Shown here piece by piece: positions 10,638 to 18,448 of a stretch of DNA of 20,610 bases (positions are counted from its first letter, which is position 1; each line of letters opens with the position of its first letter). The DNA lies in the IMG/VR virus record IMGVR_UViG_3300042731_008249, positions 1-20,610 of that record. One strand, 5' to 3'. The notes under the pieces are model-generated. The model did not search any database. It was not told the DNA's origin and worked only from the letters and a program-made list of their open reading frames with translations. The position numbers and the translations under genes are program-made. This stretch comes from a virus.

Positions 10638-11060
10638 CTAAGAGGTGGGCATTTCTATTTCCCATTTAATGCCCTTTTCTTTGAGATACCTTTCTATCCT
10701 TTCCTTTTGTTCCCACTTAAATATTGAAAAGTACTTCAAGACTTCATACCTGACAAAAGGGACATTTTCCATATAGAACTTAAACTCTCTGAAATCGTCC
10801 AGGGTTTCCCCGGTTTCTACAGGCATCACATTCTCAACAAACATACTTCCATTGCCGGTTAGAAGCCAATTTATATTTAAGTTATACTCTCTGTAAAGTA
10901 CAATAAGAAGTTTTGAAGATGGCGCACTAATGCCGTTTTCAATACTTTTCACTACGTTGTAAGTTTGAGATGTCAAAGCCACGATATCTTTTCTTTTTTT
11001 CTTTATTCTCTTCCTAAACGTCTTAAACCTTATTCCTATTTGATCTTTCTTTAATTCCAT
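10638..11060 (-). CDS. XRE-family (HTH_3) phage repressor-like regulator
   Basis: 140 residues from ATG 11060, which has GAGGTG upstream. A GTG three codons earlier lies within that site and is less likely. Residues 8-65 form an XRE-type helix-turn-helix (RFKTFRKRIKKKRKDIVAL...YNVVKSIENG), although the second helix is less canonical than in the right-hand repressor. A 'NINWLLTGNGSMF' linker (62-74) matches the one in the regulator at 15025-15462, as seen in many CI-like proteins. The C-terminus is helical and basic, not a LexA-type peptidase domain. A sigma70-like promoter and a 25-bp palindrome lie just upstream, which points to autoregulation. Confidence 0.7.
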   Translation of the reverse strand: MELKKDQIGIRFKTFRKRIKKKRKDIVALTSQTYNVVKSIENGISAPSSKLLIVLYREYNLNINWLLTGNGSMFVENVMPVETGETLDDFREFKFYMENVPFVRYEVLKYFSIFKWEQKERIERYLKEKGIKWEIEMPTS

Positions 11061-11077
11061 ACTAATCACCTCGTTTA

Positions 11078-11117: not shown

Positions 11118-11142
11118 AAATTGGTCAAAAGTTGACCAATTT
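11118..11142. promoter_or_regulatory. 25-bp palindromic operator-like site
   Basis: AAATTGGTCAA - AAG - TTGACCAATTT is a perfect palindrome just upstream of the repressor promoter. A further half site, TTGGTCAA, lies at 11198-11205. It is a natural candidate for the binding site of the adjacent XRE protein. Confidence 0.65.
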
Positions 11143-15024: not shown

Positions 15025-15462
15025 TCACCCTCCTGTCAATAATTTGGTATATTGTTCTTCTTTAAAATATTCAGGAAATTTCTTTGTCGCATATATAACA
15101 GCATTTGCCATTTCATTGCGCATTATTGGATCGTTTACAGCCTCTAAAATTAAAAGCAAATTCTTGTCTATATTCTCAAATAACAGATTTATCAATTCTT
15201 TTTTCGTTTGGGTTGTTGTTTCTTTGTCATCTTTGTTATTAAACATATTCCCAACACCATCAATTAGCCAGTTTAGGTTTATTGCATATGCATTACGCAA
15301 ATATGCCAAAAATTCAAGATTTGGGAATAACTCTCCCCTTTCTATTCTTGCTATAGTTGAGTGTGATATATTTGTCTCATTAGCAAGCTCTTGAAGGGTT
15401 TTTTTGCCTTGTTTTCTAAACTCCCTCAGTCTATTTCCAATGATTTTCTTTTGAGAGTTCAT
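15025..15462 (-). CDS. XRE-family phage repressor (CI-like)
   Basis: 145 residues. Residues 8-65 are a clear XRE helix-turn-helix: RLREFRKQGKKTLQELANET followed by 'ISHSTIARIERGELFPNLEFL'. The linker NLNWLIDGVGNMF (62-74) matches the one in the left repressor. The rest is helical, with no LexA-type peptidase motif, so induction is probably not by RecA-stimulated self-cleavage. GAGG lies seven bases before ATG 15462. Divergent from the early genes beginning at 15549, it occupies the usual place of an immunity repressor. A second, stronger leftward promoter at 16216-16244 could also feed it. Confidence 0.8.
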   Translation of the reverse strand: MNSQKKIIGNRLREFRKQGKKTLQELANETNISHSTIARIERGELFPNLEFLAYLRNAYAINLNWLIDGVGNMFNNKDDKETTTQTKKELINLLFENIDKNLLLILEAVNDPIMRNEMANAVIYATKKFPEYFKEEQYTKLLTGG

Positions 15463-16244: not shown

Positions 16245-16270
16245 TGACAAAAATACGCCTATTTTTGTCA
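16245..16270. promoter_or_regulatory. 26-bp palindromic operator, copy 2
   Basis: TGACAAAAATA - CGCC - TATTTTTGTCA, a perfect palindrome that touches the -35 box of the leftward promoter. It matches the site at 11957-11982, including the adjoining TTGAAAA. It is also just upstream of the rightward gene at 16294, so one bound regulator could act on both directions. Confidence 0.75.
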
Positions 16271-16293: not shown

Positions 16294-16641
16294 ATGGATA
16301 TAAATAAGGTTTTCAGCGAAACACATCAAACAACTGCGGTTGATTTCAATGTCAATAAGGATTTCTTCATGTATTTCCGCCTCGACCAGATCGCCGCCGC
16401 AACCGGCATCGCCCTGGCAGACCTTTATTCCCTTATCGATACCCACAAAATCGACACAGACCTTGACCAGGAAGATAGAATGATCATTCATGAGCGGGAA
16501 TACAACCGCCTGGTTGGCCTGGTTGACGATGACAGATTGAAAGCATTCAACCGGTTCATCCGGGATGTCGATCAAAAATGCACTTCAACACACCTTACCG
16601 CTATTCAACAGTATTTCCAGACGTTAGAGAGTTCAAAATGA
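16294..16641 (+). CDS. early phage protein of unknown function (115 aa)
   Basis: 115 residues with AAAGGAG eight bases before ATG. Residues 30-50 ('RLDQIAAATGIALADLYSLID') look like a helix-turn-helix or a similar helical pair, and the C-terminal half is helical with many charged residues. No membrane segment, no Cys pair. It starts the tightly coupled early operon after the operator at 16245-16270; no separate promoter box was found, so it may also be read from 15514. A regulatory role is plausible but unproven. Confidence 0.65.
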   Translation: MDINKVFSETHQTTAVDFNVNKDFFMYFRLDQIAAATGIALADLYSLIDTHKIDTDLDQEDRMIIHEREYNRLVGLVDDDRLKAFNRFIRDVDQKCTSTHLTAIQQYFQTLESSK

Positions 16642-17009: not shown

Positions 17010-17254
17010 AAATAATAATTAAATGCCGATCGGCAGAAATTGACCCATATTTTGGAGAACCGGACGAATCCCGACAAATGAAAATCACTCTCCACGATGT
17101 ATACACTAGCGAAATCGTTAAGGCTGTTGAGGATTATTTTGATATCCTTAGATGGATTCCTGATGATGTAATCAGGGATTATATAGGAAAAAAGGTGATC
17201 CCCTCCGTGACCTCTGTGTCCTCTGTGGCAAAAAACCAGGAGAATACCCCATGA
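17006..17254 (+). CDS. early phage protein of unknown function (82 aa)
   Basis: 82 residues, overlapping the previous stop by ATGA, with AGAGGTGATCC upstream (one of the best ribosome-binding sites here). Mixed alpha/beta, no recognised motif. The C-terminal 17 residues (from IPSVTSVSSVAKNQENTP) are encoded by a type-C dispersed repeat, so its present stop region was probably supplied by the repeat. Confidence 0.6.
   Translation: MKIIIKCRSAEIDPYFGEPDESRQMKITLHDVYTSEIVKAVEDYFDILRWIPDDVIRDYIGKKVIPSVTSVSSVAKNQENTP
17202..17235. repeat. dispersed repeat type C at the end of a gene
   Basis: CCTCTGTGTCCTCTGTGGCA, the same core as at 6184-6235 and 11390-11420. It encodes the Ser/Val-rich C-terminal tail of the 82-residue protein. 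Confidence 0.8.
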
Positions 17255-17454
17255 AAAACAAAAAGAAACCCCATACTCAAAGAATAATAAGCCCAAAACC
17301 ATATACAATTTATCCGCAGGACTATTACCGGTTCTTCCACCCGGATACAATCACAAAAATTTGGATTCAAACCGGCAGGCCCAAAAGGTCATACCTGCCA
17401 ATCAGACTGTATATAGACACGAAAATCCGGGAACAAAAAGGGATAGATAGATGA
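17251..17454 (+). CDS. small basic early protein (67 aa)
   Basis: 67 residues, strongly basic with many aromatic residues (PYTIYPQDYYRFF) and no recognised motif. ATGA overlap with the previous stop and AGGAGAA upstream. It may be a nucleic-acid-binding or regulatory peptide. Confidence 0.55.
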   Translation: MKNKKKPHTQRIISPKPYTIYPQDYYRFFHPDTITKIWIQTGRPKRSYLPIRLYIDTKIREQKGIDR

Positions 17455-17801
17455 GCCCACGAATTACACGAATTAACACAAATTTAAATCCATGCCCTTC
17501 TGATATCAATTTGATATCGCAAGCCTTTTTAAGGTGTGGTCAATTTGACGACACCTTAAGATATCCTTCCGTAATCATTTTGATGACAGTTCAATTTTCA
17601 GGGTGGAATCAATTTGATATCACCTTAAATTATACATCCGTCGTCAATTTGACGACGGTTCAATTTTCAGGGTGTTATCAATTTGATAACACCTTAATAT
17701 ATCCATCCGTAATCAAATTGATTACGGTTCACATTCCATCCGTAACCAATCTGGTTACGACCAAATATCACGAAATCCAAAAATCAGGAGTATCAATATG
17801 A
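17451..17801 (+). CDS. tandem-repeat ORF carrying the palindrome array (dubious)
   Basis: 116 residues, starting ATGA-coupled to the previous stop and ending ATGA-coupled to the BRO-N gene. The N-terminus (SPRITRINTN) comes from a type-A dispersed repeat. The rest is 23-residue units such as 'QFDNTLIYPSVIKLITV', produced by the palindrome array at 17502-17760. The repeat period of 69 bases keeps the frame. The 'SVxxLxT' parts are read in the same frame as the VTNLVT motif of the next gene. The product has no recognisable fold. Coding could be incidental to a DNA or RNA role. The ribosome-binding site is weak. Confidence 0.4.
   Translation: MSPRITRINTNLNPCPSDINLISQAFLRCGQFDDTLRYPSVIILMTVQFSGWNQFDITLNYTSVVNLTTVQFSGCYQFDNTLIYPSVIKLITVHIPSVTNLVTTKYHEIQKSGVSI
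17454..17482. repeat. dispersed repeat type A, copy 3
   Basis: AGCCCACGAATTACACGAAT then TAACACAAAT, same orientation as the copy at 10381-10413. It provides the first codons of the repeat ORF. Confidence 0.8.
17502..17760. repeat. array of eight regularly spaced, co-varying palindromes
   Basis: Centres: 17510, 17544, 17579, 17613, 17648, 17682, 17717, 17750. Intervals are 34, 35, 34, 35, 34, 35 and 33. Two flank types alternate: AAGGTG...CACCTT (2, 4, 6) and CCGT...ACGG (3, 5, 7, 8). The cores resemble TCAA-T-TTGA. Arm bases differ between units but stay mostly paired: GATATC/GATATC, GTCGTC/GACGAC, GTTATC/GATAAC, GTAATC/GATTAC and GTAACC/GGTTAC. Units 5 and 7 are perfect 21-base palindromes. 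Units 3, 4 and 8 have two or three mismatches. Confidence 0.92.
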
Positions 17802-18448
17802 ATCAATCAAAAACCAAAAAACTTGTCAAGTACTTCGGGAAAAAAGAGGTCACCATTATCGAAAAAGATAATCAATTGTGGATGACCGCCGAAGAAATCG
17901 GTAAAGCACTGGGTTATTCGGAACCCAGGATCGCGGTTCTAAAAATTTTCAAACGGCACAGAGATATTTTAGAAAGTTTTTCAGGGGTAACCAATTTGGT
18001 TACACCCGGTGGAAAGCAAGATGTAACCATATTTAATGAGTCTGGCTGCTACATAATTGCGATGAAATCTAATACCAGACTTGCAAAGGATTTTGTTGTA
18101 TGGGCTGCAAAAATCATCAGTGCCTACCGTCAAGGGTTACTGGTTAAAAAAGAGACAAAACCTAAACTTCCCTCTGCAACTTTCTTGCGTGAGATTCGCG
18201 AATCTACCGGCGAAACATTCGCCGGGATATATCTCCGTGATACGATCGGTATCCCTTTACCCCCTAATGTGATTGTTCAGAATTGCATTAGAACTATCGG
18301 CCTGGCCGATGGGTATGTGGCAAAAATGTTTGAGTATGATTCCGCCGCCCGCATGTACCTTGAAATAAATACCGGCAAGTTTGCCAAAAAAGACGCCCTG
18401 GCTGCCATGTTAGGCTTGACAGTCAATCAAATATGGGGGGAAAGATGA
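17798..18448 (+). CDS. BRO-N-domain antirepressor-like protein
   Basis: 216 residues, CAGGAG before the ATG. Residues 15-112 are a BRO-N domain: 'VTIIEKDNQLWMTAEEIGKALGY' then 'VTNLVTPGGKQDVTIFNESG' (64-83), 'IIAMKSNTRLAKDFVVWA' (86-103). BRO-N proteins are phage or virus DNA-binding proteins, often antirepressors. The C-terminus (125-216) is helical with a Lys/Arg-rich zone and does not match a familiar antirepressor C-terminal domain, although the end (LAAMLGLTVNQIWGER) is HTH-like. The VTNLVT codons form a palindrome of the same family as the upstream array. Confidence 0.8.
   Translation: MNQSKTKKLVKYFGKKEVTIIEKDNQLWMTAEEIGKALGYSEPRIAVLKIFKRHRDILESFSGVTNLVTPGGKQDVTIFNESGCYIIAMKSNTRLAKDFVVWAAKIISAYRQGLLVKKETKPKLPSATFLREIRESTGETFAGIYLRDTIGIPLPPNVIVQNCIRTIGLADGYVAKMFEYDSAARMYLEINTGKFAKKDALAAMLGLTVNQIWGER
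17987..18003. repeat. ninth palindrome of the array family, inside the BRO-N gene
   Basis: GTAACCAATTTGGTTAC, a perfect 17-base palindrome. Its flanks (TTTTCAGGG on the left, ACACC on the right) match array units 4 and 6 with a one-base difference in length. It codes for the VTNLVT part of the conserved BRO-N V-x-x-L-x-TPGG segment. Confidence 0.85.

Follow-up and report, generated by a model that had tools for sequence, protein, structure and literature searches.

Palindromes upstream of and within a phage Bro-N gene, and their counterparts in related antirepressor-type genes

Eight palindromes stand at regular intervals upstream of a Bro-N domain gene in a phage contig of 20,610 bases, the whole of which was analysed and is called the window below. 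What these palindromes are, what preserves their symmetry and what might bind them are the questions that this locus raises. The leftward block of the window codes for head proteins, the portal and the terminase. The rightward early region consists of small open reading frames, many of them joined by ATGA overlaps, and reaches to the Bro-N gene; the array lies in the last frame before that gene (Table 1). XRE-type repressors are encoded at 15025-15462 and 10638-11069. About 60 bp upstream of the latter gene, which is on the minus strand, lies a 25-bp dyad, AAATTGGTCAAAAGTTGACCAATTT (11118-11142), that looks like an ordinary repressor operator. Another dyad, the even GACAAAAATACGCCTATTTTTGTCA (16246-16270), is found about 36 bp ahead of the open reading frame at 16294 and is possibly an operator as well.

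Table 1. Coordinates of the array, the intragenic dyad and the surrounding genes in the window
Feature	Position	Strand	Remarks
Upstream ORF	17251..17454	+	Same ATGA-coupled series
116-aa ORF	17451..17801	+	Without a stop across the entire array; overlaps ORF 17251-17454 and the Bro-N gene by ATGA
Dyad unit 1	17497..17523	.	CTTCTGATATCAATTTGATATCGCAAG; centre 17510
Dyad unit 2	17531..17557	.	Type A; AAGGTGTGGTCAATTTGACGACACCTT; centre 17544
Dyad unit 3	17566..17592	.	Type B, most degenerate; centre 17579
Dyad unit 4	17600..17626	.	Type A; centre 17613
Dyad unit 5	17635..17661	.	Type B; centre 17648
Dyad unit 6	17669..17695	.	Type A; centre 17682
Dyad unit 7	17704..17730	.	Type B; centre 17717
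Dyad unit 8	17737..17763	.	Type B; centre 17750; shares 16 of its 17 inner bases with the in-gene dyad
Bro-N domain gene, 216 aa	17798..18448	+	Annotated phage antirepressor type; Pfam PF02498 8.2e-14; phrog_5060 anti-repressor Ant 5e-21
Ninth dyad, in the Bro-N gene	17982..18008	+	CAGGGGTAACCAATTTGGTTACACCCG; roughly codons 62-70, encoding GVTNLVTP; predicted wing, first strand

The array and its counterpart in the Bro-N gene

Eight dyads are found where a preliminary description of this DNA had placed them, and the strict spacing and the 69-base two-unit period that it reported are reproduced. The centres are 34, 35, 34, 35, 34, 35 and 33 bases apart, and a 75-mer occurs in three copies, 77-80% identical, at intervals of 69. 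The flanks are of two types, AAGGTG or AGGGTG..CACCTT (type A) and CCGT..ACGG or near (type B), with unit 1 a poor fit to either. TCAATTTGA gives an in-frame TGA in codon phase 1 only, and units 1 to 8 are in phases 2, 0, 2, 0, 2, 0, 2 and 2, so that the stop-giving phase is avoided. The 34/35/33 spacing results from this avoidance and from duplication of the 69-base two-unit block. A single relative of the array itself was found, and it is near-identical. The array was not taken for CRISPR, because its repeats differ and its linkers repeat in place of identical repeats with unique spacers, nor for intrinsic terminators, since only unit 5 matched, with a weak tail in place of a GC-rich stem followed by a T run.

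A ninth dyad, missed in the first reading, is the kin of the array and lies inside the Bro-N coding sequence. Eleven dyads in the window have at least 10 of 12 pairs, of which five are array units and one (centre 17995) is this intragenic dyad; the array core has no other copy in the 20.6 kb contig and is confined to the array and the Bro-N gene. The comparison shows that the array is composed of extra copies of a dyad also present within the downstream gene. Read in the Bro-N frame, the type A units give GVVNLTTP, GGINLISP and GVINLITP, followed by a stop, and the type B units give SVIILMT, SVVNLTT, SVIKLIT and SVTNLVT. The repeat design, which the preliminary description could match to no repeat class, is thus explained: the flank types are two versions of one wing segment, GVxNLxTP and SVxxLxT, and the units are copies of this segment that no longer encode a wing. 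AlphaFold models the Bro-N part as helix-helix-strand-turn-strand with a pLDDT of about 90, and the dyad codons fall in the first strand, that of the wing, after the second helix. Among PDB structures the match of highest probability (0.95) is the DNA damage response protein DdrC, although its E of 0.05 and TM of 0.31 are weak.

The arms of the array vary together, as had been proposed. Over the eight units and the in-gene copy, 83% of cells are paired compared with 67.5% in shuffles, 19 cells compared with 8.3 are changed on both sides, and the covariation score is 0.442 compared with 0.198; each of the three values was matched by 0 of 500 shuffles, and slid registers are 25-48% paired. Because the units descend from one another, this covariation is only suggestive by itself, and it is the evidence from the wider family that decides whether dyad symmetry is under selection. 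The intragenic dyad, with 8 of 9 inner pairs at hmm position 44, is likewise not significant alone (p 0.20 against shuffles of its own codons), so that the case rests on the family.

Dyads at a fixed position in six domain families

An unselected sample of 299 Pseudomonadota genomes, 62 of them with Bro-N, supplied 77 non-redundant Bro-N domains, and synonymous codon shuffling of the same genes served as the null. A perfect 9/9 interior dyad is present in 29% of these domains (null 0.5%) and a dyad of 24-27 bp with at least 8/9 pairs in 49% (null 6%). In a second, partly overlapping set of 76 domains, which includes loci first found by pattern, the dyads peak at a single position of the model; four intervals of the domain that served as controls give no more than the null. 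The fraction of genes with at least 8/9 pairs is 0.78 for ORF6N (null 0.08), 0.76 for pRha, Phage_pRha (0.06), 0.76 for KilA-N (0.13), 0.70 for AntA (0.11) and 0.55 for P22_AR_N (0.15), compared with 0.15 (0.10) for neighbouring genes. These samples are mostly from Pseudomonadota, and their sequences are related by descent. Dyads of 24-27 bp at a fixed domain position are shown to be a general property of the Bro-N, KilA-N, ORF6N, pRha, AntA and P22_AR_N genes. Most of the related phage and bacterial genes sampled have their palindrome where the same protein region is encoded, which suggests a DNA signal of wide occurrence, possibly the target of the protein itself.

The genes with a dyad include P22 ant, P1 kilA, where it is perfect, ant of Lactobacillus phage A2 and dinD of E. 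coli K-12; dyads also occur in phages of Clostridioides, Streptococcus, Propionibacterium and Salisaeta. Other Bro-N genes with a dyad at the same place and with different arms were picked up by a pattern search, and dyads are present in further relatives too; a scan of genome contigs gave three Zoogloeaceae loci only. The loose pattern TCAAWTTGA..TCAAWTTGA, when sought in viral contigs, matched mostly by chance. A structure model of a P22_AR_N protein, built from two sequences, was unusable (pLDDT 44).

The cores of the dyads are conserved and specific to each family, in most families the centre is AT-rich, and the outer arms use all four pair types; arm sequences differ from gene to gene and obey strict Watson-Crick complementarity. 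Match rates drop sharply past k=12-13 in most families and somewhat later in KilA-N. Covariation was seen in four sets, namely the window array, ORF6N, pRha and the DinD-like genes. Two-sided changes number 52 in ORF6N and 48 in pRha; one-sided G.U changes number 3 and 1, respectively. In 17 DinD-like genes the same residue is written with the same codon at a rate of 0.81 within the dyad and 0.42 elsewhere; His and Lys codons are invariant, three inner pairs change together and the outer arms are conserved in sequence. The paired arms, together with codons that are frozen only over the dinD dyad, indicate that selection acts on DNA symmetry. Locus L156 has two dyads in the loop that are read in a different frame, and therefore it is the DNA and not the peptide that is kept. 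Selection on the dyad, first suggested for the array, is in this way supported far beyond the window by the excess over codon shuffles, the covarying sets and the freezing of dinD codons.

Candidate binders and rival explanations

We propose that the dyad is the putative binding site of a homodimeric DNA-binding domain encoded by the same gene. In Bro-N the site would coincide with the codons for the wing's first strand. By binding within the gene, and in this phage at the eight copies ahead of it in the translated leader, the protein would repress or tune expression of its gene; the array units would be additional sites, placed in a translated, frame-coupled leader ORF, that sense and limit the Bro-N protein. 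A probability of roughly one half is given to such self-control of expression, in which the protein would recognise the dyad of its gene and, in this phage, the ladder as well. More tentatively, the same may hold for the entire superfamily (Bro-N/DinD, KilA-N, ORF6N, pRha, AntA and P22_AR_N): the bases that encode a portion of the DNA-binding domain (in Bro-N, a wing strand) would also be the target of the protein, specificity and site would co-evolve within these bases, and some phages would have multiplied the site into a leader ladder. Since the site is inside the wing codons, the protein and its target are proposed to travel together through phage mosaicism.

Several observations bear on this autoregulatory reading. 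The nine sites of the window share the half-site GTNRYCA, with A at k=2, C at k=3 and G at k=8 in 18 of 18 halves. Half-site similarity is 6.75 of 10 within this set and 3.9 to other Bro-N dyads. Because the sites resemble the array's own Bro-N gene, the earlier idea of decoys for several related proteins is, as such, not borne out. Where antirepressor genes are adjacent in one prophage, those of different families have unrelated dyads and those of the same family often share the core; such gene-specific dyads argue against a single phage repressor and for the encoded protein. In locus L209 an intact Bro-N gene is preceded by a decayed Bro-N remnant whose dyad is still perfect, and therefore the site outlives the coding. 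Against self-binding, the arms differ from site to site, both across the nine in a single genome and across the two in a single gene (L156), while a single sequence-specific dimer is expected to tolerate less. Most of the Bro-N loci checked are without upstream copies, and A.C mismatches in the dyads of all families are in excess (37%, null 17%), which also counts against it. A.C mismatches outnumber G.T by 48 to 26 (equal in the null), with the A in the 5' arm in 35 of the 48.

The dyads could instead be kept for their structure, as extrudable cruciforms or single-strand hairpins recognised by a protein. Complementarity does persist while arm sequence changes, and the AT-rich centre of most families would suit extrusion; but pairing extends to the centre, where hairpin pairs are impossible (62% at k=1 in the odd Bro-N dyads), the half-sites of the window share real sequence, and the outer arms of dinD are conserved in sequence, which makes this unlikely. 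RNA hairpins in the early transcript, one of the options listed in the preliminary description, are strongly doubted: each dyad could fold as RNA, as judged from its sequence, but G.U intermediates are almost lacking in ORF6N and pRha, G.T mismatches show no excess (20%, null 17%), and a search of Rfam returned one match only, far under the gathering score. Antirepressor genes must be silent in lysogens, and XRE-type repressors are encoded in the window, so that operators of a separate CI/XRE-type repressor that keeps the antirepressor gene off are conceivable. This explanation is less likely than that of structure; against it, the dyads of different antirepressor genes in one prophage are unrelated and E. 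coli dinD, an SOS gene with no prophage annotation, has one too. Identity with CI/Cro operators was rejected: the mapped operators of phage A2 differ from the dyad of its ant gene, and the core of the window dyads occurs only in the array and the gene.

The array might also be a store of silent wing cassettes, and gene conversion from them would diversify specificity. Its units do read as wing variants (GVVNLTTP, GVINLITP, SVTNLVT) and unit 8 nearly repeats the dyad of the gene in its inner part, but type A units close with a stop in the wing frame and the sole relative is near-identical, so that no conversion tract is visible; the explanation is improbable. Quasi-palindrome correction is a known process that yields paired changes, and template switching in replication could have perfected palindromes of no function. 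It would leave unexplained the fixed place in six domain families and the frozen synonymous codons, and is very improbable. Equally little weight is given to a replication-origin part, comparable to the lambda O iterons or to P1 oriL inside repL. Intragenic origins exist (PMC9948254), and clusters of GTCAAWTTGAC are found in phage genes that resemble replication initiators; against this, P1 has the dyad in kilA and its oriL is annotated in repL, there are several dyad genes per prophage, and dinD has the dyad too. Of the options raised earlier, the operator ladder survives in part: an operator-like DNA site fits best, and its binder we infer from the sequence.

Some known systems share features with the dyads. 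In the lambda O iterons and P1 oriL, too, a target is part of the gene whose product acts on it, but they are one system each, belong to replication initiators and have no fixed position across unrelated families; the Bro-N gene of the window encodes a regulator and is not a known initiator. Intragenic operators of the lac O2 type are also dyads within coding sequence, but they bind the product of another gene and have no family-wide conservation with variable sequence. The CI/Cro operator clusters of temperate phages similarly consist of several dyads near early regulators, with one sequence per phage, whereas the dyads here are gene-specific and lie inside the gene. REP/BIME elements have alternating palindromes with regular spacing; the present dyads are not dispersed within the 20.6 kb contig, have no linked RAYT transposase noted and are embedded in domain genes. 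The closest proteins are the Bro-N/KilA-N antirepressors, DinD and DdrC, the window protein being Bro-N and the DinD-like genes matching Pfam Bro-N. No description of intragenic dyads in these genes was found in the literature searched, mostly open-access papers. The apparent novelty lies in the intragenic dyads as a class; should they prove to be autoregulatory operators, they would work by a modified form of a mechanism already known.

If the proposal is true, a cis element has gone unnoticed within the coding sequence of thousands of 'antirepressor' genes of unclear function, and of the long-known P22 ant, P1 kilA and E. coli dinD. Such dyads are invisible to comparisons at the protein level. 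They would provide a direct handle on what antirepressor-type proteins bind and would explain the linkage of regulator and site in mosaic phages.

Other dyads and clusters near related genes

The GTCAAWTTGAC clusters (L111, L135, L152, L166, L169, L172, L181 and others) are in initiator-like phage genes, where they encode the peptides VKLT/SQID. Their spacing is often about 21-24 or 33 bp, the pairs comprise short cores only, and they are probably in-gene iterons.

Near pRha genes (within about 1.2 kb) and outside the domain families tested, a dyad CCGGGGAATG..ATTCCCCGG recurs at L378 2440, L382 510 and L383 1161. Two further dyads, CTCCTCAAAATTGAGGAG and TTCCTCAAATTTGAGGAA, are 54 bp apart at L388 2159 and 2213, in apparently noncoding DNA that precedes a pRha gene by about 400 bp. 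At L320 2690-3075, and also in L318, even dyads CAAAT..ATTTG whose arms show paired changes form an intergenic ladder beyond a P22_AR_N gene; they are interleaved with GGGAGGAG..CTCCTCCC dyads and make up a second co-varying array, of another kind. At L202 3716 and L016 4864 an antirepressor-type gene terminates exactly at a dyad, whose TCAATTTGA provides the stop codon. The L202 dyad seems to belong to a Bro-N fragment in inverted orientation, which suggests that breakpoints fall at dyads.
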